Source: Polyangiaceae bacterium
Lineage (GTDB): Bacteria; Myxococcota_A; Polyangia; Polyangiales; Polyangiaceae
Length of the DNA: 64,000 bases
Direction: 5' to 3'
Assembly: GCA_022842465.1 (NCBI GenBank)
Contig: JALHPN010000012.1
Span: 1-64,000, forward strand
The notes under the pieces were generated by a model that was not told the origin of the DNA, did not search any database, and was given only the letters and a program-made list of their open reading frames with translations. A program made the translations under genes and the position numbers. Positions 8,091 to 61,132 of this stretch are shown piece after piece. The stretch's first letter is position 1; every line of letters begins with the position of its first letter.

Positions 8091-8096
8091 AGCGTA
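8091..8096 (-). promoter_or_regulatory. TACGCT -10-like hexamer
   Basis: TACGCT ends 12 nt before the ATG at 8078, with no Shine-Dalgarno between. The same hexamer precedes the starts at 12166, 19010 and 61057. Confidence 0.45.
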
Positions 8097-8137
8097 GCAC
8101 CCGGCGTGCCCGCGACCGTGCTCCCCGTGGAGCGTCC

Positions 8138-8166
8138 TTGACAGGAGACCGTCATCGGTGGGAAAT
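8138..8166 (+). promoter_or_regulatory. Possible promoter for the His-rich small membrane protein
   Basis: A perfect TTGACA (8138-8143) is followed after 17 nt by GGAAAT (8161-8166). The -35 is consensus; the -10 matches only three of six positions. Confidence 0.35.
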
Positions 8167-8188
8167 CCTCGGCACGAGGGCCGGCACC

Positions 8189-8407
8189 ATGGGCGCAAGT
8201 GCAGAGAATCACGACCATTCGGATGCGCACGGGCACGATCACGGCCCGCCCCCGCCGCCCGAGCCGAAGACGCCGCTCTGGCTCACGGCCGTCGGCGCCG
8301 TTCTCTTCCTCCTCGTCGGCATGATCTGGGGCCTCGCGCCGGCCTCGACCCCCGAGAGCGCCGCGACGGCAGCCCCGTCCGCCGCCGCCGACGCCGGCGC
8401 GCGCTGA
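8189..8407 (+). CDS. Small His-rich single-pass membrane protein
   Basis: 72 aa from the ATG at 8189. The N-terminus is unusually His-rich (ENHDHSDAHGHDHG) and precedes a Pro-run. One transmembrane helix (about 30-50, LWLTAVGAVLFLLVGMIWGLA) and an Ala/Ser-rich tail follow. The His/Asp cluster could bind divalent metal, but no family is recognised. It stands alone, with a candidate promoter upstream and an inverted repeat at 8423-8446 downstream. Codon use fits the neighbours, so it is likely a real gene. Confidence 0.6.
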   Translation: MGASAENHDHSDAHGHDHGPPPPPEPKTPLWLTAVGAVLFLLVGMIWGLAPASTPESAATAAPSAAADAGAR

Positions 8408-8422
8408 TCGCACGCGGCCTTC

Positions 8423-8446
8423 GCGTTCACATCGAGGTGTGAACGC
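8423..8446. promoter_or_regulatory. Perfect 9-bp inverted repeat upstream of argH
   Basis: GCGTTCACA (8423-8431) and TGTGAACGC (8438-8446) are separated by 6 nt. It lies 15 nt after the small membrane-protein gene and 44 nt before argH. It could be a terminator of the former (no T-run) or a dimeric operator for argH. Confidence 0.45.
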
Positions 8447-8490
8447 CCGTCCTCGATGATCGCACGCGCCCGCCGTGGTAAGCGGCGCGC

Positions 8491-9951: not shown

Positions 9952-9970
9952 CGCCGGCGAGCTGGCGGCC

Positions 9971-10465
9971 GTGGTGAAGCAGCGCTTCCGGTACGGGGCC
10001 TCCCTCGCGCTCGTGCTCGTCGTCGTCGTCATGTTCGGGGGCGCCGGCGCGCTCTTCTTCTTCCTCGCCAGCTCGGGTAGGTCCGTCCGTCTCTTCCCGC
10101 TCGGCGTCGAGGTGGCGGGGACGCCCGTGTACGTGCTGTCGCTCGTCTCGCTCGCGTTCGCCGCGGCGATGATCGCGGTTCGCCTCCGCGCGCATCAGCT
10201 CGGACGCCGCGAGCTCGTGATCGCGACGTCCTACGTCGAGGCGCCGAAGCACGCGTGGACGGCCGAGCGGCTCCGCGTGCGAAAGGCGGCCGTGCGTTCG
10301 AGCGCCCTCCAGAACACATTCGGCACCAAGGTGCTCGTCATCGAACGCGACGACGGCGTGAAGCTCGCGATCTCGAACAGGACCGTCGGCGAGGACGGCC
10401 TGGCCGCCGTCCTTGCATGGCTCGCCGCGGCGCCCGCCGAGGAGCGCGCGTCCTCTCGCTCATGA
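9971..10465 (+). CDS. Two-TM membrane protein with PH-like domain
   Basis: 164 aa. Two transmembrane helices (about 10-34 and 52-74) are followed by a soluble domain that begins with a turn RRELVIATSYVEAPKHAW and contains alternating beta strands (KVLVIERDDGVKLAISN, then GEDGLAAVLAWLAAAP). This is the layout of small bacterial PH-domain (bPH_2-like) membrane proteins, but the match is weak. It starts 20 nt after argH at GTG 9971 and may be cotranscribed with it. No function can be given. Confidence 0.6.
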   Translation: MVKQRFRYGASLALVLVVVVMFGGAGALFFFLASSGRSVRLFPLGVEVAGTPVYVLSLVSLAFAAAMIAVRLRAHQLGRRELVIATSYVEAPKHAWTAERLRVRKAAVRSSALQNTFGTKVLVIERDDGVKLAISNRTVGEDGLAAVLAWLAAAPAEERASSRS

Positions 10466-10482
10466 CGCACCGCGCGGCGTGG

Positions 10483-10488
10483 TAGCCT
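10483..10488 (+). promoter_or_regulatory. TAGCCT -10-like hexamer
   Basis: TAGCCT ends 6 nt before the ATG at 10495; there is no Shine-Dalgarno, so a leaderless transcript would result. Confidence 0.4.
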
Positions 10489-10494
10489 CGTGCC

Positions 10495-11358: not shown

Positions 11359-11365
11359 CGGGCTC

Positions 11366-12166
11366 TCAGGTCGTTCGCCGCGACGCGGGGGCGCGGGAGC
11401 TCACGACGTCCCGCAGCGACGCGTCGCTGTCGTCCTGAACGGTCGACGAGCTCGGCGCGACGGGCGGCGGACGGTTCGACGTGCCGCGGTTCAGGAGCTT
11501 GCCGACGTGGCGGATGTCCTTCCCGCGGACCATGAAGACGACCATCTCGGCGAGGTTCGTCGCGTGGTCGGCGATGCGCTCGATGTACTTCGCGATCGAC
11601 TGCACGCGCGTCGCGCGGAAGATGTTCCGCGGGTTCTCCATCATGTACGTGAGGAGCTCGCGGAAGATCGTCGCGTAGTAGGCGTCGACCTTCGAGTCGC
11701 GCTCGACGATCGCCTGCGCGCGCTCGGGGTCGCCGGCCACGAAGGCGTCGAGGGCCTCGCGCAGCATCTCCTGCGCCGCCTCGGCCATGTTCACGACCTC
11801 GACGTACGGCTTCAGCGGCGGCTCCTCGTTCAGCTCGAGGACGCGCTCGCAGATGTTCACGCCGAGGTCACCCATCCGCTCGAGGTCGGTGACGACCTTG
11901 AGCGCCATCGTCACGAAGCGGAGATCGCTCGCGACGGGCTGGCGCCTCGCGAGCACCCGCAGGCAGAGATCGTCCACCTCCACCTCGAGCCTATTGATGT
12001 GGCGGTCGATGTAGAGCGTCTTCTCCGCGAGCTCGCTGTCGCGCTCGACGAGCGCCTTCATCGCCTGGCCGAGCATCTCCTCGACCTTGGCGCCCATCAT
12101 GAGGAGCATCTCGCGGATGCGGCGGAGCTCCCCTTCGTACTCTCGATCGGTGTGGACGCGCGGCAT
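11366..12166 (-). CDS. phoU: Phosphate transport system regulator PhoU
   Basis: 266 aa, typical PhoU with two repeated three-helix bundles. The metal-binding E/DxxxD patterns occur in both halves (for example VERDSELAEKTLYIDRHINRLE and VERDSKVDAYYATIFRELL), as does the conserved AKYIERIADHATNLAEMVV. An extra Pro/Ser-rich tail of about 45 residues follows. PhoU couples PstSCAB activity to PhoR so that the Pho regulon is off at high phosphate. It is the last gene of the pho-pst cluster, 40 nt after pstB, and has its own TACGCT element 10 nt before the ATG. Confidence 0.95.
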   Translation of the reverse strand: MPRVHTDREYEGELRRIREMLLMMGAKVEEMLGQAMKALVERDSELAEKTLYIDRHINRLEVEVDDLCLRVLARRQPVASDLRFVTMALKVVTDLERMGDLGVNICERVLELNEEPPLKPYVEVVNMAEAAQEMLREALDAFVAGDPERAQAIVERDSKVDAYYATIFRELLTYMMENPRNIFRATRVQSIAKYIERIADHATNLAEMVVFMVRGKDIRHVGKLLNRGTSNRPPPVAPSSSTVQDDSDASLRDVVSSRAPASRRTT

Positions 12167-12176
12167 GCGGGAGTCG

Positions 12177-12182
12177 AGCGTA
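12177..12182 (-). promoter_or_regulatory. TACGCT -10-like hexamer before phoU
   Basis: Ends 10 nt before the phoU ATG at 12166 on the minus strand. It suggests that phoU can be expressed apart from pstSCAB. Confidence 0.45.
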
Positions 12183-12206
12183 GCGCCTTCGCGACCCCGG
12201 AGGGAA

Positions 12207-13004
12207 TCAGCCGAAGCGTCCCGTGATGTAGTCCTCCGTCCGCGGATCGGAGGGCTTCGTGAAGATCACGTCGGCGTGGTCGTACTCGACGAGCTCGCCC
12301 AGGTAGAAGAAGGCCGTGAAGTCCGAGACGCGCGCGGCCTGCTGCATGCTGTGGGTGACGATCACGATCGTGTAGCGGTCGCGGAGGTCGTGGACGAGCT
12401 CCTCGATCTTCGCGGTCGCGACCGGGTCGAGCGAGGAGCAGGGCTCGTCCATCAAGAGCACCTCCGGCTCGAGCGCGAGGGAGCGCGCGATGCAGAGGCG
12501 CTGCTGCTGGCCGCCCGACAGCGCTCCGCCGGGCCGGTCGAGCGCGTCTTTCACCTCGTCCCAGAGGGCCGCCTGCCGAAGGACCTCCTCCACGACCACG
12601 GCCGGCTCGTCCGGATCGAGGCCCGAGAGGCGGAGGCCGGCGAGCACGTTGTCGCGGATCGACATCGTCGGGAACGGGTTCGGCCGCTGGAAGACCATCC
12701 CGACGCGTCGGCGGATGCGGACCGGGTCGACGTCCCGCGCGTAGATGCTCCGCCCGTCGAGGAGCACGTCGCCCCCGGCGCGCGCGCCGGGCACCACCTC
12801 GTGCATGCGGTTCAGGCAGCGGACGAAGGTGGACTTTCCGCACCCCGACGGGCCGATGACGGCGGTCACGCGATGCTCGACGAGCGGGAGCGTGATCTCG
12901 TTCAGCGCGCGCTTGTCGCCGAACCACGCCGTGAGGCCCTCCGCGCGCATCTTCGGACGCGCCTCGGAGGGGGAGGGGGAAGAAGGCGGCGTGCTCCGGG
13001 GCAT
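12207..13004 (-). CDS. pstB: Phosphate ABC transporter ATP-binding protein PstB
   Basis: 265 aa. Walker A is GPSGCGKST, the ABC signature is [16 protein letters not shown], Walker B is [13 protein letters not shown], and the H-loop is IVTHSMQQA. PstB energises high-affinity phosphate import through PstC/PstA. The ATG at 13004 lies 2 nt after the pstA stop. The N-terminal 18 residues are a Pro/Ser-rich extension before the ABC domain, and a second Met at residue 19 ([14 protein letters not shown]) is a possible alternative start. Confidence 0.97.
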
Positions 13005-13006
13005 CG

Positions 13007-13867
13007 TCAAGGCGACCCCTTCGCGGTGCCGTCGGCGCGTCGCGTGAGGCGCGACACGAGGTGGAGGAGCATCACGATGGCGACGAGGACGAGCGCGGCG
13101 GCCCAGGCTTGGGCGTGTCGGTCGTCGCTCGGCGACAGCGTATAGAAGAAGATCCGGACCTGCATCGTGGAGGTGGGCTCGAGGGGGCTGCCCGACCAGA
13201 AGTCGTTGTCGAACGCGGTGAAGAGGAGGGGGGCGGTCTCGCCGCAGACGCGCGCGATGGCGAGCAGCGTACCCGAACGGATCCCCGGCGCTGCAGTGCG
13301 GAGCACGACGTGGAGCGCGATCCGCCACCGCGGCGCGCCGAGCGCGATCGCCGCCTCGCGGAGGGAGTCGGGTACGGTCCGCGCCAGCTCGTCGGTCGTC
13401 CGCGTGACGAGCGGGAGCATCATGATCGCGAGCGCCACCGCGCCGGCGAGGCCCGAGAAGCGTCGCATCCCCACCACGAACGTCGCGTAGACGAACACGC
13501 CGACGAGGATCGACGGGACCCCTGCGAGGACGTCCGCGCAGAAGCGCACGCCGCGGGCGAGCCAGGAGTCCCGGTACTCCGCGAGGAAGAGGCCTGCGAG
13601 GATCCCGGTCGGGACGCCGAGCGCGGTCGCGAGGACGACGAGCTCGAACGTCCCGGCGACGGCGTTCGCGATCCCGCCGCCGCGCGTCGCGGCGTCGGGC
13701 AACGTCGTGAAGAACGCGAAGGACAGGGCGCCGAGCCCGCGCACCGCGACGTAGCCGAGGATCGCGACGAGCGGCAGGATCGCGAGCGCGACGGCGAGGG
13801 ACGAGAGACCGACGGCGACCTTGTCGGCCAGGCGCCGCGTGACGTAGCGGTCGGCGCGCGCGGTCAT
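13007..13867 (-). CDS. pstA: Phosphate ABC transporter permease PstA
   Basis: 286 aa, six transmembrane helices. The permease EAA-type loop [20 protein letters not shown] is at about residues 178-197, preceded by the conserved [24 protein letters not shown]. It forms the membrane channel with PstC. The ATG overlaps the pstC stop (ATGA, 13864-13867). Confidence 0.96.
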
Positions 13868-14871
13868 CGGCTCACCTCGGCGACCGCGCGTGCGAGGCGC
13901 CGCCCGCGCGAGGCGCCGCGCGCGACGAGCACGCGGGCCACGACATTGAACGCGAGTGAGAGCGCGAAGAGCAGGAGCCCGAGCTCCGCGAGCGCCGCGA
14001 CGTGGAGCTCGCTCGTCGCGTGCGCGAACTCGTTGGCGAGGACGCTCGCGAGCGTGTAGCCGGGGGAGAACAGCGAGCTCCCGATCTCGGCGCGGCTGCC
14101 GACGACCATCGCGACCGCCATGGTCTCGCCGACGGCGCGACCGAAGCCGAGGAGCACCGCCCCCGAGAGCCCCGAGCGCGCATGCGGGAGGACGATGCGC
14201 TTCACGACCTCCCAGCGCGTCGCCCCGAGCGCGAGCCCACCCTCGCGGAGCTCCGTCGGGACCGCGCGGAGCACCTCGCGCGAGATCGTCGCGATGGTCG
14301 GGATGACCATGATCGCGAGCACGAGGCCTGCGCAGAAGAGCCCTAGCCCGAGCTTCGGACCGCGGAAGAAGGCGATCGAGCCGAGGTGCGCCTCGAGCGC
14401 GGGCTCGATCACCGTGCGGAGGAGCGGCGCCAGCACGAGCGCCCCCCAGAGCCCGTAGACGACGCTCGGGATCGCCGCCAGGAGATCCACGAGGAACCCC
14501 ACCGGGCGCCGCAGCGCGGGCGGTCCGAGGTCGGACTGGAACAGCGCGACCCCGAGGCCGACGGGGATCGCGAGGAGCAGCGCGAGGCCTGCCGTGACCG
14601 CCGTCCCGTAGACGAACGGGAGCGCGCCGAGCTCGCCGCTCACGGGGTCCCACGTGCGGCCGACGACGAACGCAGGACCGAAGCGAGCGAGGCTCGGGAG
14701 CGCGAGATGGAGCACCGCCCCCGTGATGGAGGCGAGGACGACGGCGAGCAGCGTCGCAGCGCTCGCCCCGAGGAGCTCGAACGCGCGATCCGCCGTCACG
14801 AGCGGGGGCTCCGCGCTCGGCACGGGCGCAGAGCCCTCCGGGCTCCGCGGGCGCGCGACGTCCGTCGTCAT
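13864..14871 (-). CDS. pstC: Phosphate ABC transporter permease PstC
   Basis: 335 aa, six transmembrane helices preceded by a ~30-residue cytoplasmic Pro-rich N-terminus. Family blocks include [55 protein letters not shown] and the EAA loop [20 protein letters not shown]. It pairs with PstA. The ATG at 14871 is 2 nt after the pstS stop and its own stop overlaps pstA, consistent with one polycistronic message. Confidence 0.96.
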
Positions 14872-14873
14872 CG

Positions 14874-15974
14874 TCAGCCTCCCAGCGCCCGCGGCGCCGC
14901 GGCGAAGACGATGGGCCGGCCGCCGGCGCGGAGCTCGCGGAGCACGCTCTCTGCCCGGAGGACGAGCTCGGGCGGGAGCTCCGCGTAGTCGAGCGGGCGC
15001 GCGTAGCGCTGGCCGTCGTGGACGGCCCACCAGAGGAACTGGGCCAAGGCGGCGCCGCGCTCGGGATCGCGGGCATCACGCGGCAAGACGACGTAGGAGA
15101 GCGCCGTGATCGGGTAGGCCGCCGGATCGGTCGTGTCGACGAGGCGGATCGGCGTGTCCCGCGCGGCGCCCGGATCGAGGAGGACCGCGGCCCGCGCGGC
15201 GTGGTCGAGCGCCTCGAGGGTCGGCGTCACGAACGCGCCGGCTCGGTTCTGCACGGACGCGACGGGCAGGCCGGCGAGATGGGCGTGGGAGACCTCCACG
15301 TAGCCGATCGTGAAGGGCGTCACCTTCACGTGGGCGGCCACGCCTTCGCTGCCCTTCACCCCCACGCCGGTCGGGAAGCGAGGCGTCGTACCGGCGCCCA
15401 CCTTCGATCGCCACGCCGCGCTCGTCCGGGAGAGATAGGAGGTGAAGGCCGCGCTCGTGCCGCTCCCGTCGGCGCGATGGACGACCGTGATGGGCTCCGC
15501 CGGGAGCGCACGGCCCTCGTTAGCCTCCCGGATCCGCGCATCGTCCCAGCGGGTGACCGTGCCGAGGAAGACGTCCGCGACGAGGTCCGCGGTGAGGCGG
15601 AGCGGCGCGGCGCCCGGCAAGTTGTAGGTCACCGCGACCGCGCCGATCGTCGTCGGGACGTGGAGCACCGAGTCCTTGCAGCGCGCGAGCTCTCCTTCGC
15701 TGAGCGGCTCGTCGGTCGCGCCGAAGTCGACGACGCCGTCGGACACCTGGCGGACGCCTGCGCCGGAGCCGACGGACTGGTAGTTGATGCGCACCTTCGG
15801 ATCGAGCTTCGCGTACTCGGCCGACCAGCGGGCGTAGAGCGGATACGGCAGCGTCGCGCCGGCGCCGTTGATGACCCGCATCGAGTCCGCGTTGCTCTTC
15901 GAGCAGGCCGACGCGATCGCGACGGCGGAGAGGACGACGAGCCCGAGCAGGAGCCAGCGGAGGCTGCTCTTCAA
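14874..15974 (-). CDS. pstS: Phosphate-binding lipoprotein PstS
   Basis: 366 aa from a TTG at 15974 that overlaps the phoR TGA (TTGA). Residues 1-24 form a lipoprotein signal ending ASAC. The mature protein starts with the PstS pattern INGAGATLPYPLYARW, followed by YQSVGSGAGVRQVSDGVVDFGATDEP and later VHRADGSGTSAAFTSYLS, the phosphate-binding loops. It delivers phosphate to PstCAB at the outer face of the inner membrane. The length is slightly greater than the Escherichia coli protein, as usual for lipidated forms. Confidence 0.96.
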   Translation of the reverse strand: MKSSLRWLLLGLVVLSAVAIASACSKSNADSMRVINGAGATLPYPLYARWSAEYAKLDPKVRINYQSVGSGAGVRQVSDGVVDFGATDEPLSEGELARCKDSVLHVPTTIGAVAVTYNLPGAAPLRLTADLVADVFLGTVTRWDDARIREANEGRALPAEPITVVHRADGSGTSAAFTSYLSRTSAAWRSKVGAGTTPRFPTGVGVKGSEGVAAHVKVTPFTIGYVEVSHAHLAGLPVASVQNRAGAFVTPTLEALDHAARAAVLLDPGAARDTPIRLVDTTDPAAYPITALSYVVLPRDARDPERGAALAQFLWWAVHDGQRYARPLDYAELPPELVLRAESVLRELRAGGRPIVFAAAPRALGG

Positions 15975-17416
15975 GCCGCGGTCTCCCGCGCCTCGCGCGC
16001 GAGATCGTCGGTCGACCCTCGCTCGCGGACGCGTGTGCTCCCGTCGGGGAGCTTCATCTCGAAGGTGGTGCCCTTGCCGACGGCGCTGTGCACGACGATG
16101 GTGCCGCCCATCGACTCGACGAGGTGCTTGACGATCGAGAGGCCGAGGCCGGTGCCGCCCATCTCGCGCGACCGGCCCGCGTCGACGCGGTAGAAGCGCT
16201 CGAAGAGCCGCGGGAGGTGCTTCTCTTCGATGCCGAGGCCGTCGTCGGAGACGCGGAGCACGAGGCCGCGGGCGCCCTCCCCCGTCTCGCCGGCGAGCGT
16301 GACGGTGCATCCCTCGGGGCAGTACTTGACCGCGTTGTCGACGAGGTTCGTCAAGACCTGCTCGATCGCGCGGCGATCGAGATCGGCGACGAGCCCCTTC
16401 GGAGCGACGAGCCGCAGCCCCACGCGCTTCTTCTCGGCGCGCTCGCGGAACATCCCGAGGAGGTGCGCGGCGAACGGCTCGAACGCGAAGCGCTCCGGGC
16501 GGAGGCGGAGCTCGCGCGACTCGATGCGCGAGAGGTCGAGCAGGTCCTCGATGAGGCGCTGGAGGCGGGCCGCGTTCCGCTCGATGATGCCCAGGAAGCG
16601 CTTCGCGCCCTCGGGGTCCTTCTCGAGCGCCATGTCGAGGGTCTCGGCCGCGGAGAGGATGGCCGTGACCGGCGTGCGGAGCTCGTGCGAGACGTTGGCC
16701 ACGAAGTCACGACGGAGCGACTCGAGACGGCGTACGTCGGTGACGTCGAAGAAGACCGCGAGGAGCCCGCCGGCGTCGTCCTTCGCGGCCGCGCCGAGCT
16801 GCGTGAAGGCGCCGCTCACGAGGAGGCGGCGGGGCTTCAGGCCTCCGAGCTCGATCTCGCCCGAGCACGTCGAGCGCGTCTGCCTCGCGCGATCGAGGAG
16901 CTCCTTCAGCTCCGCGTGGCGCACGACCTCGAGGAGGGGTTGGCCGACCACGTCCGCGCTGAGGAGGAGCATCTCGCGGAGCGACGGGTTCATGAGCGCG
17001 ACCTTCCCGTCGCGATCGAGGAGGAGCACCCCCTCCTGCATCCCGTTCAGGATCCGGCTGACGAGGTCGCGCTCGGTGCGGAGCTCGCCCACGGTCTTCG
17101 ACAGGCTCCCCGCGAGCTGGTCGAAGGCGGCCCCGAGGTCGCCGACGTCCTCGTCCTTCGTCACGCGCGCGCGCACGGAGAGATCTCCGTCGTGCATGCG
17201 CTGCGCGGCGGCGGTCAGCGGGCGCACGGTCTCGTCGAACCAGCGCATCGTCAGCTCGGAGAGGACGAAGCTCGCGCCGAAGCCGGCGCCGAGCGAGACG
17301 AGGAGGGCCGTCACCGTCCGTACGTCGTGACCGACGAGCGTGAGGGCCACGTAGACACACGACGACACCACGACCGCGATCGCGAAGAGGAGGCGGACGC
17401 GGATCCGGGCTCTCAC
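15971..17416 (-). CDS. phoR: Phosphate regulon sensor histidine kinase PhoR
   Basis: 481 aa from the GTG at 17416, which overlaps the phoB TGA. Two transmembrane helices (about 8-28 and 34-56) are followed by HAMP (57-110), PAS (about 115-228), HisKA with the phospho-acceptor His244 in FVANVSHELRTP, and HATPase_c (NLVDNAVKYCPEG; DDGLGIEEKHLPRLFERFYRVD; GGTGLGLSIVKHL). Almost no periplasmic loop is present, as in other PhoR proteins that sense through PstSCAB/PhoU. It phosphorylates PhoB. Confidence 0.95.
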   Translation of the reverse strand: MRARIRVRLLFAIAVVVSSCVYVALTLVGHDVRTVTALLVSLGAGFGASFVLSELTMRWFDETVRPLTAAAQRMHDGDLSVRARVTKDEDVGDLGAAFDQLAGSLSKTVGELRTERDLVSRILNGMQEGVLLLDRDGKVALMNPSLREMLLLSADVVGQPLLEVVRHAELKELLDRARQTRSTCSGEIELGGLKPRRLLVSGAFTQLGAAAKDDAGGLLAVFFDVTDVRRLESLRRDFVANVSHELRTPVTAILSAAETLDMALEKDPEGAKRFLGIIERNAARLQRLIEDLLDLSRIESRELRLRPERFAFEPFAAHLLGMFRERAEKKRVGLRLVAPKGLVADLDRRAIEQVLTNLVDNAVKYCPEGCTVTLAGETGEGARGLVLRVSDDGLGIEEKHLPRLFERFYRVDAGRSREMGGTGLGLSIVKHLVESMGGTIVVHSAVGKGTTFEMKLPDGSTRVRERGSTDDLAREARETAA

Positions 17417-18111
17417 CCGGTGGCCTCTTCGGGGTTGTCGGCGAAGCGGTACCCGACGCCACGCACGGTCTCGATGTAGTCGCCGCAGACCCCGAGCTTC
17501 TCGCGGAGCCGCTTCACGTGCGTGTCCACCGTGCGCGTCGTGATGTCGGCGTCGATGCCCCAGACGTCGCTCAGGAGCGCCGCGCGCGTCTGGACGCGGT
17601 TCCTGCGGTCGTAGAGGGTGACGAGGAGCTTGAACTCGAGCGCCGTGAGCTCGAGCTCCGCCTCGCCGGTCCACACGCGGTGCGCGCCGCGATCGATGCG
17701 GAGGTGACCGAACTGGATCGTGGCAGCCACCTCCTGCTCGCTGCTCGAGCGTCGGAGGATGGCCTGGATGCGGAGGAGGAGCTCCCGCACGCTGAAGGGC
17801 TTCACGACGTAGTCGTCCGCGCCGAGCTCGAAGCCGACGACGCGATCGATCTCCTCACCCTTCGCGGTGAGCATGACGACCTGCGCGTTCTTCGTCAGCG
17901 GGTCGGTCTTCAGGGTCTTGCAGATCTCCGTCCCGGGGATGTCGGGGAGCATCAGGTCGAGCAGGACGAGGTCCGGCTTCTTCTCCCGCGCGATCCGCAG
18001 CCCCTCTTCTCCCCTCCCGGCGACGAAGACCTTGTGGCCCTTCTCGCGGAGGTTGTAGTCGAGGATCTGCTGGATGTCGGCTTCGTCCTCGATGATCAGG
18101 ATTCGCGCCAT
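17413..18111 (-). CDS. phoB: Response regulator PhoB (OmpR/PhoB family)
   Basis: 232 aa. Receiver domain at 1-120 with acidic pocket Glu8/Asp9 and phospho-acceptor Asp52 (LVLLDLMLPDIPG), Lys in MLTAKGEE. A winged-helix effector domain covers about 135-228 (LTALEFKLLVTLYDRRNRVQTRAALL, TRTVDTHVKRLREKLG, VRGVGYRF). It activates Pho genes when phosphorylated. The ATG at 18111 is preferred; a GTG immediately upstream (18114) is possible. As the first gene of the operon it puts phoBR upstream of pstSCAB. Confidence 0.96.
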   Translation of the reverse strand: MARILIIEDEADIQQILDYNLREKGHKVFVAGRGEEGLRIAREKKPDLVLLDLMLPDIPGTEICKTLKTDPLTKNAQVVMLTAKGEEIDRVVGFELGADDYVVKPFSVRELLLRIQAILRRSSSEQEVAATIQFGHLRIDRGAHRVWTGEAELELTALEFKLLVTLYDRRNRVQTRAALLSDVWGIDADITTRTVDTHVKRLREKLGVCGDYIETVRGVGYRFADNPEEATG

Positions 18112-18122
18112 CACTCGCGGAT

Positions 18123-18152
18123 ACTCTAGTCGTGTGACGAACGTGTGTCATG
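18123..18152 (-). promoter_or_regulatory. phoB promoter with overlapping 11-bp direct repeats (PHO-box-like)
   Basis: On the minus strand ATGACA (18146-18151) and TAGAGT (18123-18128) are spaced by exactly 17 nt, and the phoB ATG follows 11 nt later. Overlapping the -35, two 11-bp units on the plus strand (CGTGTGACGAA, 18131-18141; CGTGTGTCATG, 18142-18152) agree at 7 of 11 positions. That is the layout of a PhoB-type operator with autoregulation; sequence identity to the Escherichia coli PHO box is only partial. Confidence 0.5.
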
Positions 18153-18995: not shown

Positions 18996-19001
18996 TACGC
19001 T
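18996..19001 (+). promoter_or_regulatory. TACGCT -10-like hexamer
   Basis: Ends 8 nt before the GTG at 19010, supporting that start over longer in-frame options that overlap the preceding gene. Confidence 0.45.
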
Positions 19002-20897: not shown

Positions 20898-20903
20898 TAT
20901 GCT
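20898..20903 (+). promoter_or_regulatory. TATGCT -10-like hexamer
   Basis: Ends 9 nt before the ATG at 20913. It argues for that start rather than the in-frame ATG at 20871. Confidence 0.45.
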
Positions 20904-35370: not shown

Positions 35371-35376
35371 TAGTCT
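35371..35376 (+). promoter_or_regulatory. TAGTCT -10-like hexamer
   Basis: Ends 6 nt before the ATG at 35383, with no Shine-Dalgarno in between. Confidence 0.4.
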
Positions 35377-37337: not shown

Positions 37338-37343
37338 TATAGT
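37338..37343 (+). promoter_or_regulatory. TATAGT -10-like hexamer
   Basis: Ends 12 nt before the ATG at 37356, directly after a hairpin. It is the closest match to TATAAT among the start-proximal hexamers. Confidence 0.5.
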
Positions 37344-43800: not shown

Positions 43801-45010
43801 ACAGCGTTACCATGCTGCGTATGCCATCTGGGAAGTACCAAAGTCTCGGAAGGGGCAGCGTACTTCGCAGGCCCCACCTAAGAATGTTCCCGAGGAACCG
43901 CGCCTGCTCGTCTGCCTGTGGAATGTCGTTTGCAAAATCTGATGTGCGTCCCCTGAACTCGGAACGCCACTGGTTGTTCCAGTTGAGTCCAGTGTTGACG
44001 TTGGCGAACATCTGCGCAGGCCTATCGCTCGCAGTAATGTTTTCATCAGCGGCGTAATGTGTTGATCGGACGAGATAGTGGGAGTAATTTGCGATGCCGG
44101 CTTGCCATGGGTTTCCCTGGCGCGTCAGTGCGATGCTTTCGGCCAAATTGTAGGTGAAGAGTGTGGCGCGTCCACCCGAGGCATGCTGATAGTGCGCCAC
44201 GGCGGGTGACGGCTGAAGTCCACTGGTTTCGAGATCTGCCAAAACTTGAGTTCCAGTGAGCGCCGTTACTCGACGCGCAGCACTGTGAATTCCGAGAGGC
44301 GCTGTTGTGAGTCCCTGGACGGCGGGGTGGGTCGTCCGGAGCCGGACAGCGCTTGTTGTGCAAAACGAGCACTCCATGCCGGTGCTTCCGGTGTCTCCGT
44401 CTGGAAAGTTATCGGACTTGCACTCGGCCCTGAGCCGCTTTCCAGTCGCTGGATTGATGTCTTCGGCTGCGCGAATGACCTGAGAGCCTGCGCAGAGATG
44501 CCGAGTTGGCGTTGCACCGACATACGGACACACATGCGAGTCGGTCGAAGTTCCTGTGTACGAAACATTGAACACGTCCGAATAGAACGTGCTCGTCGAG
44601 GCGACCTTCGGTCGGAACGCGACGAGGTGGCCTCCGTTCGTGACGAAGTCGCGGAACAGCGTCTCCTCCGTCGGCGTGATCGTGATGGCCGGGAGGATGA
44701 CAGTCGCATGCGTCGCGAGGCAGGTTCCCGTGAGCGCGCTCAACTCCGCCGTGGTGAAGGACTTGTATCCCTCGGTCTTGAGGATTTCAGCGATGAAGGA
44801 TGGGTAGAGATTGGCGCTGTTCGTCGCAGAAACAGTGTCGAGCACCACGAGGATGGGGCTTCCGTCACCGCAGACTCCGCTTGTCTGCTTGCGTGTCGTT
44901 TCAGGCTCACTCGTGAAGATTGTGCCCGATTCGGTGCAAGCCACCGCGACCGCAAGAACCGACGCAAAGGAAGCCCGCCGTATCCACCGGCGGGCGCGTT
45001 CGTTGACCAT
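40886..45010 (-). CDS. Giant lipoprotein: NodB-like domain plus three DUF4082-like repeats
   Basis: 1374 aa. Lipobox AVAC at Cys25. Residues about 50-385 are a domain I do not recognise (VLDTVSATNSANLYPSFIAEILKTEGY). At about 398-690 a polysaccharide-deacetylase (NodB)-like fold is suggested by VTLSSDGCTHGG and AGAHEIGIHYN. A carboxypeptidase-like/fibronectin-type stretch covers about 775-865. Three ~150-residue DUF4082-like repeats (from about 870, 1035 and 1215, each with LGxRFxSDVxGxIxxxxFYR-type starts) end the protein. DUF4082 occurs in extracellular carbohydrate-active proteins. The central part is markedly AT-richer than neighbours, suggesting transfer. It probably modifies or binds extracellular glycan. 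Confidence 0.75.
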   Translation of the reverse strand: MVNERARRWIRRASFASVLAVAVACTESGTIFTSEPETTRKQTSGVCGDGSPILVVLDTVSATNSANLYPSFIAEILKTEGYKSFTTAELSALTGTCLATHATVILPAITITPTEETLFRDFVTNGGHLVAFRPKVASTSTFYSDVFNVSYTGTSTDSHVCPYVGATPTRHLCAGSQVIRAAEDINPATGKRLRAECKSDNFPDGDTGSTGMECSFCTTSAVRLRTTHPAVQGLTTAPLGIHSAARRVTALTGTQVLADLETSGLQPSPAVAHYQHASGGRATLFTYNLAESIALTRQGNPWQAGIANYSHYLVRSTHYAADENITASDRPAQMFANVNTGLNWNNQWRSEFRGRTSDFANDIPQADEQARFLGNILRWGLRSTLPLPRLWYFPDGIRSMVTLSSDGCTHGGDPHKARVQLQAEEVRRAGGNAAFYGFVNDNPLTMVAMTPSMAATLSTADAGAHEIGIHYNIADEHHYTYDEMQYGKTGQTGLNDQRDMYMTQYAVAPHNVAVPTTTRMHTGRWTSTGASDNDGGMPYENYPAAQAKLLASPFGSYPGDRLDSSYISFPRTFGMMTGAAVPMKMLDVCASSGSQSIIDLYEHNTTIEDDVQFFVNSGSTGWPVSVAARRFEVSMAEGFWRYATVHNPLFHSLHWSDAAGGIRPYGLQFLDLARAHGVPVVAPRDFLTHWAARADVTMGSFTYSNGQASFVMKNVLRDQSLLMPIEVGSATLSSVLVDGSSVAFSVEEIEGSWYGRLKVAAGVTAPDYERTVVASYATAYAASGTLGVDGANSVVLLTGIEGSSPGRTVHLSVRADASGGFTFPKLAGGQYEVRPISPTRVFTPATATFTLSSAASLTFSSAAGATPYGAGLALMPDETPSLDDPNPTARQLGVRFKSDVAGAITRLRLFRRAESSARTAYVWTTGGVRVGRADFPAAGKHGGWQEQELLAPVTVPANTTMVAAFVAPSGEAAPYLPGGFDTPLRRGPLQTDPDGSGSVSVSGSVSALPSTSEGNDNYMIDVNFVPFAESFHASPTPSASTASSGTAYMLGMRFSVTTEGQLNALRYYRAAGETGTHYGMVWRVSDNAVMATAQFTNEDGSSVAGWQQQNIPPVPLATGTEYVIGVNSGSNHSNYVYPYEYTGLATASTNGLVSVPGTPNGVYGTFNTSSPFLTTRPTSSYLNTDYFRDIVYSRAQSLYHASTDYVDHFAPVDEGYELGSRFTSDVNGTITAVKFYQAANSAGKPEGGPHVGKVWGPDHRLLATATFPRTNKVGWVEVALDRPLPIRAETEYTVSVNAGIDVDGQGSVASDGDSGVPPSRTWLYAARPGMATVISFRHLQSVGNGGGVYGPIGTCPQSSYYNYLYFRDVVFVPD

Positions 45011-45102
45011 CTGACGTCCTGACGCCGCGCATCCGTTCGACCAGGTGTCGGTTCGAAGAGCGGTGCGCGGCGCGGCCGAGGGTACGGCGGAAGGAACGGC
45101 TC

Positions 45103-45128
45103 CGCTATCCGTGGCCCCACGGATGGCG
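45103..45128 (-). terminator. 12-bp hairpin between membrane-protein gene and giant lipoprotein gene
   Basis: CGCTATCCGTGG (45103-45114) and CCACGGATGGCG (45117-45128) pair throughout (one T-G) with a 2-nt gap. It lies downstream of the minus-strand gene ending at 45192 and 93 nt before the giant gene start, so it may end the first transcript. Confidence 0.5.
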
Positions 45129-45191
45129 CAGCCCCCCACCCACCCGCTCGCGTGTATATCGCTCAGGGAGAAATGCGGCGCGCTGTCACAG

Positions 45192-47484: not shown

Positions 47485-47490
47485 TAGCCT
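47485..47490 (+). promoter_or_regulatory. TAGCCT -10-like hexamer
   Basis: Ends 19 nt before the ATG at 47510; the longest spacing of the set, still without a convincing Shine-Dalgarno. Confidence 0.35.
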
Positions 47491-52036: not shown

Positions 52037-52618
52037 CTACGTCCGGGGCGGAGTGGCCGACGCCCAGAGGCTCGCCAGTTCGAGCTCGACCGCGTCGAAC
52101 GGCTCGGCCCTCACCATGGCCTCACCCTGGAACGTCCCCAGGAGGAGCCAGCGTGTCTCCACCCGTCGGAAGACCTCGAGCGTCCGGAGGAGCGGGTCGA
52201 CGAGCCAGGCGTGCGCGACACCGGCGTCGGCGTAGATCGGCATCTTCTCCGCGCGATCCGTCGCGGCCCTCGACGGGCTCAGGACCTCGCAGATCCAGTC
52301 GGGAACAGCTTCGAAGTACGCCGTCTCCGGAAGAGCCGGCATCGCCTCGACGCGCCAACCGCCGACGTCCGGCACGACGATGTCACCCGATCGGAAGTGC
52401 AACTCGGGCTCGTCGAGGATCCACCAGCCGCCGGGTCCGCCTCGACCGCGACTGAACGGAGGACTGAGCTCCCCCCCGAGCCTCGACGCCGCGAGCGCGT
52501 GCGCGGGCGCGGGCCGTGGGCTCGTGTGGAGCACGCCGTGCAAGATCTCGGCGACCACATGGGCCGGCGCCGCGAGGACATCGTCGTACGTGGCACGCCG
52601 CCGCGCGCGATCGGCCAT
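52037..52618 (-). CDS. Uma2-family protein (restriction-endonuclease-like fold), intact copy
   Basis: 193 aa. The core reads WILDEPELHFRSGDIVVPDVGGWR, then DWICEVLSPSRAATDRAEKMPIYADAGVAHAWLVDP, with Asp/Glu/Lys residues in PD-(D/E)xK-like positions. Uma2 proteins (DUF820) are abundant in some lineages, and the biological role is not established. The ATG at 52618 is 6 nt after a TACGGT element. It ends 3 nt from the convergent DNA glycosylase gene. Two broken relatives lie at 36863-37297 and 60480-61057. Confidence 0.85.
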   Translation of the reverse strand: MADRARRRATYDDVLAAPAHVVAEILHGVLHTSPRPAPAHALAASRLGGELSPPFSRGRGGPGGWWILDEPELHFRSGDIVVPDVGGWRVEAMPALPETAYFEAVPDWICEVLSPSRAATDRAEKMPIYADAGVAHAWLVDPLLRTLEVFRRVETRWLLLGTFQGEAMVRAEPFDAVELELASLWASATPPRT

Positions 52619-52624: not shown

Positions 52625-52630
52625 ACCGTA
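52625..52630 (-). promoter_or_regulatory. TACGGT -10-like hexamer
   Basis: Ends 6 nt before the Uma2 ATG at 52618 on the minus strand. Confidence 0.4.
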
Positions 52631-53379: not shown

Positions 53380-53385
53380 ACTCTA
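53380..53385 (-). promoter_or_regulatory. TAGAGT -10-like hexamer
   Basis: Ends 14 nt before the ATG at 53365. TAGAGT is also the -10 of phoB. Confidence 0.4.
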
Positions 53386-55682: not shown

Positions 55683-55964
55683 ATGAAACGACGACGGACC
55701 CCAGACGAGGCGACGGTCCGCGACGCGCGCGGGCGTGTCTGGACGGTGACGGTCACCGACGTCGACCAAGACGACGACCTCATGCCTTGGCTCGACATGA
55801 CGCCCGACGAGCGGGTCGCGCTCATCGGCGAGTGCGTGCTCGACGGACTACGCACGAAGGGAAAACGTGGAGTTCCCCGACTTCGAAGAGTTCATCGCGT
55901 CACTCAACGCGCATCGCGTTCGCTACCTCATCGTGGGAGCGTACGCAGTCGGCTTCCACGCTAG
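55683..55964 (+). CDS. Small protein upstream of nucleotidyltransferase (possible antitoxin)
   Basis: 93 aa. It starts MKRRRTPDEATVRDARGRVW and has an acidic middle (DVDQDDDLMPWLDMTPDERVALIGECVLDGL). The last ~32 residues overlap the start of the nucleotidyltransferase gene in another frame and are basic. The arrangement (short gene, then an MNT/AbiEii-like gene) resembles a toxin-antitoxin pair. I recognise no named antitoxin family, so the role is from context. Confidence 0.5.
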   Translation: MKRRRTPDEATVRDARGRVWTVTVTDVDQDDDLMPWLDMTPDERVALIGECVLDGLRTKGKRGVPRLRRVHRVTQRASRSLPHRGSVRSRLPR

Positions 55965-56397
55965 ACCGCGCGCGACGAAGGACATCGACGTCCTGGTCGA
56001 TCGGACGCCCGCGAACGCTCGACGTGTCGTTGCGACCCTCCGGGATTTTCTCGGCGCGTCCGCACCCAACATCACCGAGGCGAAGCTCCGGGATCCTCGA
56101 ACCCTGATCGTCCTCGGCGTGCCGCCGGTTCGCATCGACGTCCTGACGAGCATCGACGGAGTCCTCTCCTTCGCGGCCGCATGGAAGCGCCGCGCCGAAG
56201 GGCGTTATGGCGCCACGCCGACGTACTTCCTGTCCCTTTCGGATCTGATCGCAGCCAAGGCCGCGACCGGCCGGCCCCAGGACCTCGCCGATCTCGACGT
56301 CCTCCAGCGCGTCGCCGCTCGTACTACGCCCCCTCGGCGGCCGACGAAGGCTCGGGCTCCGCGAGCGGCTCGCGCTTCAAGGCCAGGTAGGGGATGA
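55867..56397 (+). CDS. AbiEii/DUF6036-like nucleotidyltransferase
   Basis: 176 aa from the GTG at 55867. DNA-polymerase-beta-type nucleotidyltransferase motifs: VRYLIVGAYAVGFHARPRAT, the metal-binding DxD in KDIDVLVDR, and the third carboxylate in VRIDVLT. The C-terminal LSDLIAAKAATGRPQDLADL is typical of AbiEii-related proteins, which modify tRNA ends as toxins. It overlaps the preceding small gene by 98 nt and the convergent flippase-like gene by 74 nt. Confidence 0.78.
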   Translation: MEFPDFEEFIASLNAHRVRYLIVGAYAVGFHARPRATKDIDVLVDRTPANARRVVATLRDFLGASAPNITEAKLRDPRTLIVLGVPPVRIDVLTSIDGVLSFAAAWKRRAEGRYGATPTYFLSLSDLIAAKAATGRPQDLADLDVLQRVAARTTPPRRPTKARAPRAARASRPGRG

Positions 56398-57401: not shown

Positions 57402-57407
57402 TAGAGT
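57402..57407 (+). promoter_or_regulatory. TAGAGT -10-like hexamer
   Basis: Ends 6 nt before the ATG at 57414. Confidence 0.4.
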
Positions 57408-57413
57408 TCGAGG

Positions 57414-58234: not shown

Positions 58235-58283
58235 CCCTCGCGGGCCCGCGCGCCGGTTGTGGCGCGAAAGCGTGGTTTTCGCT

Positions 58284-59414
58284 ATGAACGAGGCCCCCAT
58301 GCCCGTTCCCTTCATCGACCTCTCGCGGCTGGTCTCGCGCATCCGCGAAGACGTGCTCCCCGCCTGGACCGAGTGCCTCGACAAGTGCGAGTTCGTGGGC
58401 GGCCCCCGCGTCGCCACGCTCGAGAAGAAGCTCGCCACCACGCTCGGCGTCCCCCACGTCGTCTCGTGCGCGAACGGCACCGACGCCGTCCTCGTCGCGC
58501 TCCAGGCCGTCGGCGTGAAGCGGGGGATGAAGGTCGCGCTCCCGAACCTCACGTTCTGGGCGACGTTCGAGGCGGTCGCGCAGCTCGGGGCGATCCCCGT
58601 CCTCGTCGACGTGAACGAGACGGACCTCCAGCTCGACCTCGATCAGCTGAAGTCCGCCTACGACGCGCACCGCTTCGACGCCGTCATCATGGTCCACCTC
58701 TACGGCTGGACGTCGGCGCGGCTCGGCGAGATCCGTGCGTTCTGCAAGGAGCGCAAGCTCCCCCTCGTGGAGGACGGCGCGCAGTGCTTCGGCGTCGAGA
58801 CGTGCGGCGAGCCCGTCCTCGCCGCGAGCCAGATCGCGACGCTCTCGTTCTACCCGGCGAAGGTCGTCGGCGGCGCCATGGACGGCGGCGCGGTGACGAT
58901 GGCGTCGGCGGAGCACGAGAAGTTCGTCCGCTCGATCTGCAACCACGGCCGCTCGGACCACTACTCGTATGCCCACGTCGGCTGGAACTCGCGCATGGGC
59001 GGGATCAACGCCGCCTTCCTGAACCGCGTCATGGACGAGGTCCCCGCGATCATGGAGTCGCGCCGGAAGGGCGCCGCCTTCTACCGGGCCCGCCTCGCCG
59101 ATCAGAAGAAGATCCGCGTCTACGGCCCGCCGGACGGGGTCGTGGAGAACGGGTACCTGAACGTCCTCACCGTCGAGGGAAAGAAGGGGCAGGAGGTCGT
59201 CGACGCCTTGAAGAAGGCGGGCATCGGCGCCGCGCGCACGTACCCCGAGACGATGGACGCGCAGCCGCCGGCGAAGGACGCCGGCACGATCGTGCACGGG
59301 GACATGAAGGTCTCCCGCGCGATGTGCGAGCGCGTCGTCAACCTTCCGCTCTTCTACGGCATCCGTGAAGACGAGTGCGAGCAGGCCGTGCGCGCCCTCC
59401 TCGAGGTGATCTGA
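58284..59414 (+). CDS. DegT/DnrJ/EryC1-family sugar aminotransferase (second copy, WbpE-like)
   Basis: 376 aa. VPFIDLSRLVSRIREDVLPAW at the N-terminus, CANGTDAVLVALQAVGVK, LVEDGAQCFGVET, and the PLP-Lys in LSFYPAKVVGGAMDGGAV. RYPE-type C-terminal block is TYPETMDAQPP. It overlaps the Gfo/Idh/MocA gene (TGATG), so the pair should convert a 3-keto sugar nucleotide to the 3-amino form, as WbpB/WbpE do. It is distinct from the aminotransferase at 49816-50961, having a shorter and more WbpE-like sequence. Confidence 0.92.
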   Translation: MNEAPMPVPFIDLSRLVSRIREDVLPAWTECLDKCEFVGGPRVATLEKKLATTLGVPHVVSCANGTDAVLVALQAVGVKRGMKVALPNLTFWATFEAVAQLGAIPVLVDVNETDLQLDLDQLKSAYDAHRFDAVIMVHLYGWTSARLGEIRAFCKERKLPLVEDGAQCFGVETCGEPVLAASQIATLSFYPAKVVGGAMDGGAVTMASAEHEKFVRSICNHGRSDHYSYAHVGWNSRMGGINAAFLNRVMDEVPAIMESRRKGAAFYRARLADQKKIRVYGPPDGVVENGYLNVLTVEGKKGQEVVDALKKAGIGAARTYPETMDAQPPAKDAGTIVHGDMKVSRAMCERVVNLPLFYGIREDECEQAVRALLEVI

Positions 59415-60475
59415 TGGCTCCCGGAAATCGCGTGAAGATCATCCTCATCGGCCTCGGCCGGATGGGGCGGAACCACTTTCGCATCCTGAAGGACACGCCG
59501 GGCTTCGAGCTCGTGGCGGTGGTCGACGGGAAGGCGACGCCGCCTTCGCCCGCGGATCTCGGGGGCGCGAAGTTCGTGCGCGACGTCGCCGAGCTCGACG
59601 ACGCGTCCTACGACGCGGCCGTCATCGCGACGCCGACCGGGACGCACCACGCCGTCGCGCTCGGGCTCATCGCGAAGGGCAAGCACCTCCTCGTCGAGAA
59701 GCCGCTCGCCAGCACGTACGCGCAGGGCGCGGAGATCCTGGACGCGGCGCAGAAGAAGGGCATCAGGCTCGTCGTCGGCCACGTGGAGCGCTTCAATCCG
59801 GCGGTCCGGAAGCTCCGCGAGATCATCAAGGAGGGCTTCCTCGGGACGCCGATCCACTTCGCGTTCACGCGCGTCGGCGGGTACCCGGACACGCTCGTCC
59901 AGGGCAACAACGTCATCCTCGATCTCGCGGTGCACGACATCGACGTGCTCCGGAGCGTCGTCGGACCGCTCAAGCTCGAACACTCGATGTGCCACGTGAC
60001 GTGGCGCGAGGGGGTGTTCGACACGGCGGAGATCTTCCTCGCCTCCGCGAGCGGCGCGAGCGCCACGGTGCACGTGAACTGGATCACCCCGACGAAGATC
60101 CGCAGCATCCGCGTGACCGGCACGCGGGGCGTCTGCTTCGTCGACTACATCCTCCAGACCTGCGATCTCATGGGCGGGAGCCTCCTCAAGCAGGTGGAGC
60201 CGTCGAGCTCGAGCTTCGACATCATCCAGGAGCACTACCGCACGAGCGACAAGATCCAGTTCGGCGTGCAGAAGGTGGAGCCCCTGAAGGTGCAGGCGAT
60301 GCAGTTCCACCAGTTCTTGACCACGGGCGAGACCGGGGAGCTGTGCACGGGCCGGGACGCCCTCGCGGCCGTCCTCCTCGCGGAGCGCGCGGTCCAGGTC
60401 GAGCAGACCCGCACGAAGCCGAACTCGCTCCCTCCGATGGACAAGCTTCCGGCTCCCGACGACGACTGGATCTGA
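59414..60475 (+). CDS. Gfo/Idh/MocA-family dehydrogenase, UDP-GlcNAc 3-dehydrogenase type
   Basis: 353 aa. IILIGLGRMGRNHFRIL (NAD), LLVEKPLA (the EKP motif), VGHVERFNPAVRKL and VILDLAVHDIDVLR. The last two blocks are characteristic of UDP-N-acetylglucosamine 3-dehydrogenases. It would oxidise C3 of UDP-GlcNAc or its uronic acid with NAD+, giving the substrate for the coupled aminotransferase. Start ATG overlaps the preceding stop. A Glu/Ser-rich C-terminus of about 20 residues lies beyond the usual end. Confidence 0.88.
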   Translation: MAPGNRVKIILIGLGRMGRNHFRILKDTPGFELVAVVDGKATPPSPADLGGAKFVRDVAELDDASYDAAVIATPTGTHHAVALGLIAKGKHLLVEKPLASTYAQGAEILDAAQKKGIRLVVGHVERFNPAVRKLREIIKEGFLGTPIHFAFTRVGGYPDTLVQGNNVILDLAVHDIDVLRSVVGPLKLEHSMCHVTWREGVFDTAEIFLASASGASATVHVNWITPTKIRSIRVTGTRGVCFVDYILQTCDLMGGSLLKQVEPSSSSFDIIQEHYRTSDKIQFGVQKVEPLKVQAMQFHQFLTTGETGELCTGRDALAAVLLAERAVQVEQTRTKPNSLPPMDKLPAPDDDWI

Positions 60476-60479
60476 CGCG

Positions 60480-61057
60480 TCAGGTCGCCGCGAGCGGATC
60501 GCGATAGACCTCGTCCAGCGGCAAGGCGCATCCGATCGAAGCGAGGGGGGCGACCGCGCCGGCCTCGGCGATGTGCCGCGACCAGGTTCCGTCCGCCTCG
60601 CGTCGCACGACCTCGATCTCGCGCCGGTCGTGCGCGACGAGGACGATCTCCTCGAGCGACGCGATCCGGAGGTAGTGCCGGAGCTTCTCCCCGCGATCGT
60701 AGGCCTCCGTCGAAGGGCTCAGCACCTCCACGACGACGCGGGGGTTCGACACGGTGTGACCCTTCGGATCTTCGGGATCGAGCTCGAGCTTCCCGCAGAC
60801 GACCGTGACGTCGGGGTACGTCCCGAGCCCCGTCTCGAGGACGCGCACCCGCAGGTCCGCCGTGGAGACCCGGCAGCGCTGCCCGGTGAGGTGGACGTGG
60901 AGGAGTGCCAAGACGTTCCCGGCGATGGCCGCGTGGTCCGGGGTGCCCCCCGACATCGCCCACACGCTCCCGTCGAGGAACTGTGCTTGGTGCCGGAGTC
61001 CGCCTCGAGGAGGAGGTACTCCGCGAAGGTGAACCGGTGGTGCGCGACGCCTCCCAT
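60480..61057 (-). pseudogene. Uma2-family gene with a single-base frameshift
   Basis: Starting at the ATG at 61057 the protein reads MGGVAHHRFTFAEYLLLEAD and then SGTKH before going out of frame. FLDGSVWAMSGGTPDHAAIAG and the rest of the Uma2 core (YPDVTVVCGKLEL, VVVEVLSPSTEAYDRGEKLRHYL) continue in another frame to the stop at 60480. Restoring one base between the codons of KH and FLDG (near 60982) would give a continuous ~192-aa protein. It could be a recent mutation or an assembly error. TACGCT lies 9 nt before the start. Confidence 0.78.
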
Positions 61058-61066
61058 GGCCCAGCA

Positions 61067-61095
61067 AGCGTAGCGTGCCCGTGGCAGGGCGTGAA
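61067..61095 (-). promoter_or_regulatory. TTCACG-17-TACGCT promoter before the frameshifted Uma2 gene
   Basis: TTCACG (61090-61095), 17-nt spacer, TACGCT (61067-61072), then 9 nt to the ATG on the minus strand. It shows that the recurrent hexamer can sit at the right distance from a -35-like element. Confidence 0.5.
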
Positions 61096-61126
61096 CTCGC
61101 GGGGCCCCGGGGCGGCCGAGTTGGGG

Positions 61127-61132
61127 TAGGCT
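61127..61132 (+). promoter_or_regulatory. TAGGCT -10-like hexamer
   Basis: Ends 14 nt before the GTG at 61147. Confidence 0.35.

Follow-up and report, generated by a model that had tools for sequence, protein, structure and literature searches.

TANNNT hexamers set against start codons suggest leaderless or short-leader transcription in a Polyangiaceae genome

In the 64,000-nucleotide stretch of a Polyangiaceae genome analysed here (the window), hexamers of the form TANNNT recur shortly before start codons, and this raises the question of whether they are promoter elements from which leaderless or short-leader messages would be transcribed. An initial annotation had named 17 such hexamers. 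All 17 were found on the right strand, with the first T 12–25 nt 5' of the named start. The starts were compared with those of our own caller, which judges a start only by coding potential and the type of start codon and is blind to upstream motifs. Twelve of the 17 were identical to the caller's choice (8078, 12166, 19010, 18111, 53365, 20913, 10495, 47510, 35383, 37356, 52618 and 61147), with small margins at 20913, 52618 and 61147. The other five were not confirmed: no gene was called from 61057, 57414, 55683 or 36863, and 53421 was favoured over 53436 with a margin of 0.6. The hexamers at the confirmed starts, apart from those of phoU and phoB given below, are:

8091–8096, minus strand: TACGCT, at −18 of ATG 8078 (trypsin-like/PDZ protein)
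10483–10488, plus strand: TAGCCT, first T at −12 of ATG 10495
18996–19001, plus strand: TACGCT, at −14 of GTG 19010
20898–20903, plus strand: TATGCT, at −15 of ATG 20913 (start margin 0.1)
35371–35376, plus strand: TAGTCT, first T at −12 of ATG 35383
37338–37343, plus strand: TATAGT, at −18 of ATG 37356
47485–47490, plus strand: TAGCCT, at −25 of ATG 47510
52625–52630, minus strand: TACGGT, at −12 of ATG 52618 (Uma2 protein; start margin 0.0)
53380–53385, minus strand: TAGAGT, at −20 of ATG 53365
61127–61132, plus strand: TAGGCT, at −20 of GTG 61147 (start margin 0.0)

At three of the 12 confirmed starts (53365, 61147 and 47510) the hexamer lies beyond −18, outside the −12 to −18 peak. The named starts had been described as having no evident Shine-Dalgarno sequence, and direct reading bore this out at 16 of the 17 (no GGAG, GAGG, AGGA or AAGG at −18 to −5); the exception is 57414, with a borderline AAGG. 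Among the 55 usable genes of the window, nine carry TANNNT at −12 to −18, against 0, 0, 0 and 0 in four shifted windows.

The genome count against shifted controls, which had been proposed as a check, also showed enrichment. TANNNT with its first T at −12 to −18 was found before 137 of 978 sampled genes (14.0%), compared with 17, 13, 8 and 9 in the shifted windows. The edge of the distribution is sharp: the peak is at −12/−13, and 28 matches at −12 stand against 3 at −11. In addition, a G occurs two bases 5' of the hexamer in 85 of the 137 cases. It seems from these counts that, in the sampled parts of the genome, about one gene in eight has a promoter immediately adjoining the start codon; the message of such a gene would begin with the first codon or a few letters before it. 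Very probably, then, TANNNT is the −10 element of housekeeping-type promoters set against start codons, from which RNA polymerase would begin transcription with the start codon's first base or 1–6 nt before it. Messages of this kind, with no leader or almost none, would presumably be translated without Shine-Dalgarno pairing. 70S initiation is known for leaderless messages of other bacteria, and translation of the messages predicted here may likewise be initiated on 70S ribosomes.

Signals of the −35 kind agree with this reading. TTGAC was found 17 times at −41 to −35 before start codons and 0 times at −34 to −28, with 2.7 expected, which gives an edge at −35. Downstream of TTGAC, NANNNT follows at 17–18 nt in seven cases (about 0.9 expected); this is the sigma-70-type arrangement of a −35 element 17–18 nt before the −10. 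Only 2 of the 17 TTGAC matches come from the held-out sequence. Additionally, TG was enriched at −23/−22 from the hexamer, that is, at the −35 place (27 versus 9.8 expected, pooled), while the held-out set alone was borderline (7 versus 3.5, p 0.065). We also considered a mutual exclusion of the TTGAC and TANNNT classes, and none of the 17 had both, which was not significant (p 0.077). An example of the TTGAC class in the window:

6910–6915, minus strand: GACCAT, a weak −10, at −12 of GTG 6903 and 17 nt after TTGACA
6933–6938, minus strand: TTGACA, exactly at −35 of GTG 6903, the start of a PP2C gene (6127–6903)

The TTGACA of this gene is also found at −36 to −38 in loci L049–L052.

Another place where the position of a promoter can be read from the sequence is the gene for a PhoB-like regulator:

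17413–18111, minus strand: phoB-like response regulator gene (Response_reg, Trans_reg_C), predicted leaderless
18118–18123, minus strand: TATCCG, probable true −10, at −12 of phoB ATG 18111 and 15 nt after the second repeat
18123–18128, minus strand: TAGAGT, the hexamer named at first, at −17 of ATG 18111
18134–18149, minus strand: Pho-box-like direct repeat GACAC-N6-GTCAC with 11-bp period, upstream of phoB

We examined 31 phoB loci: L231 and 30 that were cut out on the basis of matches, which occurred in 108 of the 144 genomes. In 22 of the 24 orthologs having the repeat, a TA lies 15 nt after the second repeat, and 20 of these 22 TAs are 12–15 nt 5' of the ATG. The start codons align across the orthologs, and the distance between TA and repeat is constant even where the distance to the ATG varies. 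TAGAGT is present in near relatives and absent from other genera. The −10 of phoB is therefore probably TATCCG at −12 and not TAGAGT at −17; the start at 18111 and the presence of TAGAGT were both confirmed, and it is as a conserved −10 that the named hexamer probably fails. The geometry, two repeats with an 11-bp period and a −10 at fixed distance, is that of a PhoB-type promoter as predicted from sequence. Of three E. coli promoters retrieved, phoA alone served to calibrate it: in that of phoB the repeat was unmatched, and in that of pstS the match fell on a different box further upstream. The strict Pho-box pattern has a single match in the genome itself, at phoB.

The hexamer could instead act in translation, as an A/U-rich contact for the ribosome or S1 or as a structure-free patch, and be no promoter at all. 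The placement of the signal before start codons would suit this, and S1-domain proteins are encoded, but we consider it improbable. Motifs with these letters reordered show no comparable enrichment (5–18 matches, versus 54 for TANNNT, in 308 divergent genes), and the TTGAC edge lies 23 nt further upstream, which is the classical spacing. In phoB the TA keeps to an activator-box-like repeat and not to the ATG. Overlapping operon genes, which need translation but no promoter, are nearly without the signal (1 of 126). This last count bears on the statement that operon-internal genes lack the hexamer, which held for overlapping pairs and failed for genes after gaps of 11–40 nt, where 26 of 104 carry TANNNT. 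It is contradicted by phoU, one of the genes originally named, which itself lies behind pstB in an operon:

12177–12182, minus strand: TACGCT, at −16 of ATG 12166 (phoU), in the gap after pstB

The phoU hexamer is not conserved; TANNNT was present at −12 to −18 in 5 of the 29 relatives looked at.

A still less probable explanation is that the hexamers are promoters and the true start codons lie downstream, behind ordinary leaders. Many genes do have in-frame alternatives, and three starts in the window have margins of 0.1 or less. However, the peak and the edge persist in the 268 genes that have no second in-frame start within 45 nt (13 at −12, 14 at −13, 1 at −11), and the phoB starts are aligned among orthologs. 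Shine-Dalgarno 4-mers are also rarer in TANNNT genes than in the others (18 of 137 versus 305 of 841), at or below the level of shifted windows (153, 175 and 173 of 978). Before operon-internal genes they are enriched (99 of 192 versus 28, 32 and 43), which suggests that the anti-Shine-Dalgarno works; a search for the 16S 3' end gave no 16S match in the assembly itself or in six relatives. As for chance or composition, TA is commoner in upstream than in coding sequence, but a gathering of A/T-rich words where the G+C content drops ahead of genes can practically be dismissed. In the discovery sample (707 genes called and 683 used; genes less than 110 nt from a stretch end excluded) TANNNT exceeded the shifted upstream windows 12-fold, and among 448 gapped three-base patterns at −18 to −12 it had the highest z-score; in the held-out 400 kb it was again enriched (44 of 295 genes; controls 5, 4, 5 and 2).

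From the TANNNT edge, the −35 edge, the loss of Shine-Dalgarno motifs and the phoB geometry we infer, as the initial annotation had, leaderless or short-leader transcription from promoters set against start codons. TANNNT promoters with longer leaders, sought at −60 to −19, were not above reordered motifs (39 versus 15–54). In a post hoc comparison the first T was at −12 in 28 of 137 matches here, 12 of 48 in other Polyangiaceae and 14 of 25 in other Myxococcota samples, and the spread to −18 may exceed that of other Myxococcota. An enrichment of GTG at −12/−13 in the discovery sample (23 of 47 versus 8 of 46) was discarded, as the held-out set did not reproduce it (4 of 19 versus 4 of 25). 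Start codons are generally preceded by C (70% in the −12 to −14 class, 56% in other genes); the contrast between the two groups was not replicated on its own (p 0.22), so C was not taken to mark the start site. Stop codons overlapped the hexamer in six cases, in which no trend is claimed. As a positive control, a Deinococcus deserti plasmid gave 10 versus 2.5 in its first 106 genes, and the control was weak when enlarged (13 of 217 genes, against a mean of 9.2 in the shifted controls).

Tentatively, the start codon might be a common default transcription start in Polyangiaceae, with three promoter types abutting it, a ribosome that accepts leaders of zero and of 1–6 nt, promoters in operon gaps of 11–40 nt, and phoU and phoB swapping between promoter-adjacent and Shine-Dalgarno-led forms among neighbouring genera. 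One type could then be driven by TANNNT, one by TTGAC together with a weak −10, and one could depend on an activator bound at a Pho box. Regulators and natural products abound in myxobacteria, and a literature search for leaderless messages in myxobacteria found no paper, judged at the level of search results. Should about one in eight genes indeed have a promoter against the start codon, adjustments would be needed in these bacteria to the annotation of start codons, to promoter prediction and to cloning with Shine-Dalgarno-containing leaders. phoB shows a route that needs no RNA: a conserved activator site fixes the promoter, from which the position of the start codon is read off. The mixture of zero and short leaders poses a testable question, namely how strict leaderless initiation is outside Actinobacteria.

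The E. coli phoA promoter is PhoB-dependent and likewise has two repeats with an 11-bp period and a −10 (TATAGT) at +15 from the second repeat, but its start codon is about 52 nt past the −10, whereas here the distance is 12–15 nt in 20 of 22 orthologs. In 2011 Myxococcota were filed under delta-proteobacteria. The promoter-adjacent or leaderless arrangement is already known from other bacteria, as the main text of Zheng et al., 2011 (PMC3160421) sets out; its TA-led genes lack a Shine-Dalgarno sequence and carry a TANNNT whose first T precedes the start by about 12 nt. Correspondingly, TANNNT about 12 nt before the start is enriched here, and the same genes are Shine-Dalgarno-poor. Table 2 of that article gives TA-led genes in 8 of 33 delta-proteobacterial genomes, on average 15.8% (5.7–20.6); Sorangium, Myxococcus, Anaeromyxobacter and Haliangium have no occurrence in its main text. 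Compared with that text, the −35 edge and the Pho-box anchor are additional in the present genome. In Mycobacterium tuberculosis about a quarter of genes are leaderless (Cortes et al., 2013; PMC3898074). According to the part of that article drawn on here, a TANNNT −10 is centred 7–12 bp before transcription starts, which were measured there and are predicted from sequence here; CGN or SRN often precedes the −10, like the G two bases before our hexamer, and no −35 motif was found, unlike in the present genome, which shows a weak TG in the −35 position and the TTGAC class. In Deinococcus, as the cited part of PMC12340547 describes, TANNNT 6–7 bp before the ORF is assumed to give leaderless mRNA; in D. 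radiodurans this concerns nearly one third of genes, compared with about one eighth by the strict motif in the present genome.

Gene starts were chosen by a purpose-written gene caller that scored nothing but coding potential and the type of start codon. The discovery sample of 852,350 bases was made up of the window and 40 further stretches from its assembly; 707 genes were called in it, and the 683 lying far enough from stretch ends were used. All 17 TANNNT hexamers named in the initial annotation were found in place in the window sequence; 12 of its 17 starts coincided with the caller's and five were not matched. TANNNT with its first T at -12 to -18 from the start codon (TA-led genes) occurred in 9 of the 55 usable genes of the window and in none in each of four shifted control windows. 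In the discovery sample it had the top z-score among 448 gapped three-base patterns at -18 to -12 (95 seen, 10 expected). By position of the first T there were 19 genes at -12, 28 at -13, 15 at -14 and 13 at -15, with a tail farther out and a sharp drop near the start (2 at -11, 3 in total at -10 to -7).

Predictions were fixed in advance for a held-out sample of 400 kb, previously unused; the model applied to it had been trained on discovery data alone. TANNNT preceded 44 of 295 genes (shifted windows: 5, 4, 5 and 2), with 9 at -12 and 1 at -11, but 3 at -10. In the pooled samples 137 of 978 genes were TA-led against a shifted-window mean of 11.75, a net share of about 12.8%, and the proposed positional enrichment holds for the sampled genes of this genome. 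Among 308 divergent genes, TANNNT was found 54 times at -18 to -6, and the same letters reordered 5-18 times. When only the 268 genes lacking any further in-frame start within 45 nt were counted, the tail out to -18 was still there, so wrong starts are not its main cause; the tail may represent leaders of 1-6 nt.

Judged from sequence, TANNNT before starts looks like a promoter element. Shine-Dalgarno four-mers were present in 18 of 137 TA-led genes versus 305 of 841 others, G stood two bases upstream of the hexamer in 85 of the 137, and TG at the expected -35 place was seen 27 times versus 9.8 (pooled; borderline in the held-out set alone). The claim that operon-internal genes lack the hexamer was only partly right, since it suits overlapping pairs but not gaps of 11-40 nt.

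Genes with the hexamer by gene arrangement
Overlapping operon pairs: 1/126
Gap 0-10 nt: 5/68
Gap 11-40 nt: 26/104
Gap 41-100 nt: 21/121
Gap >100 nt: 14/179
Divergent: 65/350

A search for TTGAC, made after pooling and independently of TANNNT, found it at -41 to -35 in 17 of 978 genes (2.7 expected), 15 of them from the discovery sample. Six lay exactly at -35, none occurred at -34 to -28, and none of the 17 genes was TA-led. NANNNT followed 17-18 nt downstream seven times (about 0.9 expected). Counts were 8 versus 1.9 in other Polyangiaceae samples and 6 versus 1.9 in other Myxococcota. One example lies in the window, and its TTGACA is also found at -36 to -38 in four loci from relatives (L049-L052):

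6127-6903, minus strand: PP2C gene, TTGACA at -35, GACCAT at -12

The best named matches of ArgH were Labilithrix and Polyangiaceae MAGs (74-77% identity), so the source organism is probably a member of the Polyangiaceae. A 16S rRNA search gave no match in its assembly or in G020, G032, G056, G059, G073 and G078, perhaps owing to a limit of the search or of the stretches it covered; three of these six relatives are single contigs, expected to contain the gene. Relatives were analysed with the same caller, mostly at 40-100 kb per sample; any single small sample is weak evidence.

TANNNT at -12 to -18 in relatives (control mean)
Same genus: G073 12/82 (0.0); G004 3/28 (1.2)
Same family: G056 10/75 (1.2); G032 9/61 (2.0); G020 8/75 (1.8)
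Named Polyangiaceae: 6/73 (1.8)
Same order: G088 13/55 (2.8); G098 4/77 (4.0); G103 3/22 (0.5)
Same class: G119 1/31 (0.8)
Other Myxococcota: G123 9/86 (1.5); G102 9/78 (1.8); G128 4/63 (0.8); G084 2/58 (4.5); G108 1/67 (3.0); named Myxococcaceae 3/55 (0.5)

No enrichment was seen at these positions in E. coli, 5/79 (7.5), or Bacilli, 13/249 (40.8). The D. deserti plasmids gave 10/106 (2.5) at first and 13/217 (9.2) when enlarged, and are therefore a weak positive control. The share exactly at -12 was smaller in this genome and other Polyangiaceae than in samples from other Myxococcota (post hoc, p 0.0009); it did not differ between this genome and D. deserti (p 0.16).

Several other features of the window were recorded. 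Of two Uma2 genes, 52037-52618 looks whole; 60480-61057 (minus strand), whose Pfam match begins at profile position 25, looks frame-broken or affected by a sequence error, because the annotated start 61057 is in another frame. At 55683-56397 (plus strand) a nucleotidyltransferase gene of DUF6036/AbiEii-like type (55867-56397) comes after a 93-aa ORF that has no Pfam match. Together they possibly make up a type IV toxin-antitoxin-like pair; because the two frames overlap, the 93-aa ORF may not be real. Between 40001 and 48000 G+C drops to 0.635-0.649, and 42575-45191 is without called genes; this is possibly a foreign stretch, or genes were missed by the caller.

Of the phosphate genes of the window, phoB and phoU were compared across relatives.

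11366-18111, minus strand: apparent operon phoB-phoR-pstS-pstC-pstA-pstB-phoU

Pfam backs phoB and phoU, phoR as a histidine kinase and pstB as an ABC ATPase; the pst genes for the permeases and the binding protein are named from gene order and tblastn neighbours. A direct repeat, GnCA(C/T) with an 11-bp period, was found upstream of the start in 24 of 31 phoB orthologs, and in 22 of these TA stood 15 nt past the start of the second repeat, the remaining two being off-register repeat matches. The T of this TA lay at -12 (8 orthologs), -13 (3), -14 (3), -15 (6), -20 (1) or -38 (1). L284 and L285, the phoB orthologs of two related genera, have no Pho-like repeat before phoB and carry an SD-like GGAGG there. 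In the window, TATCCG at -12 occupies the conserved +15 place. The TAGAGT noted initially is present at -17, overlapping TATCCG; it recurs in near relatives but is absent from other genera, and so is probably not the conserved -10. Before phoU, TANNNT was found at -12 to -18 in 5 of 29 relatives (starts extrapolated from alignments), a pattern that shows turnover of the hexamer at this gene. E. coli phoA has TATAGT at the same +15 spacing from the second repeat, although its start codon lies about 52 nt beyond. The repeat pattern gave no match in E. coli phoB and matched an upstream box in pstS, so the spacing calibration depends on phoA.

Among the papers listed in literature searches, none dealt with leaderless messages in myxobacteria. 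Nakagawa 2017 cautions that A/T signals of this type need not always mean leaderless messages. The signal type itself is already known from other bacteria: Zheng 2011 (PMC3160421) describes the same signal, with such genes in 8 of 33 delta-proteobacterial genomes, Cortes 2013 (PMC3898074) measured it in M. tuberculosis, and a 2025 paper (PMC12340547) describes it in Deinococcus.
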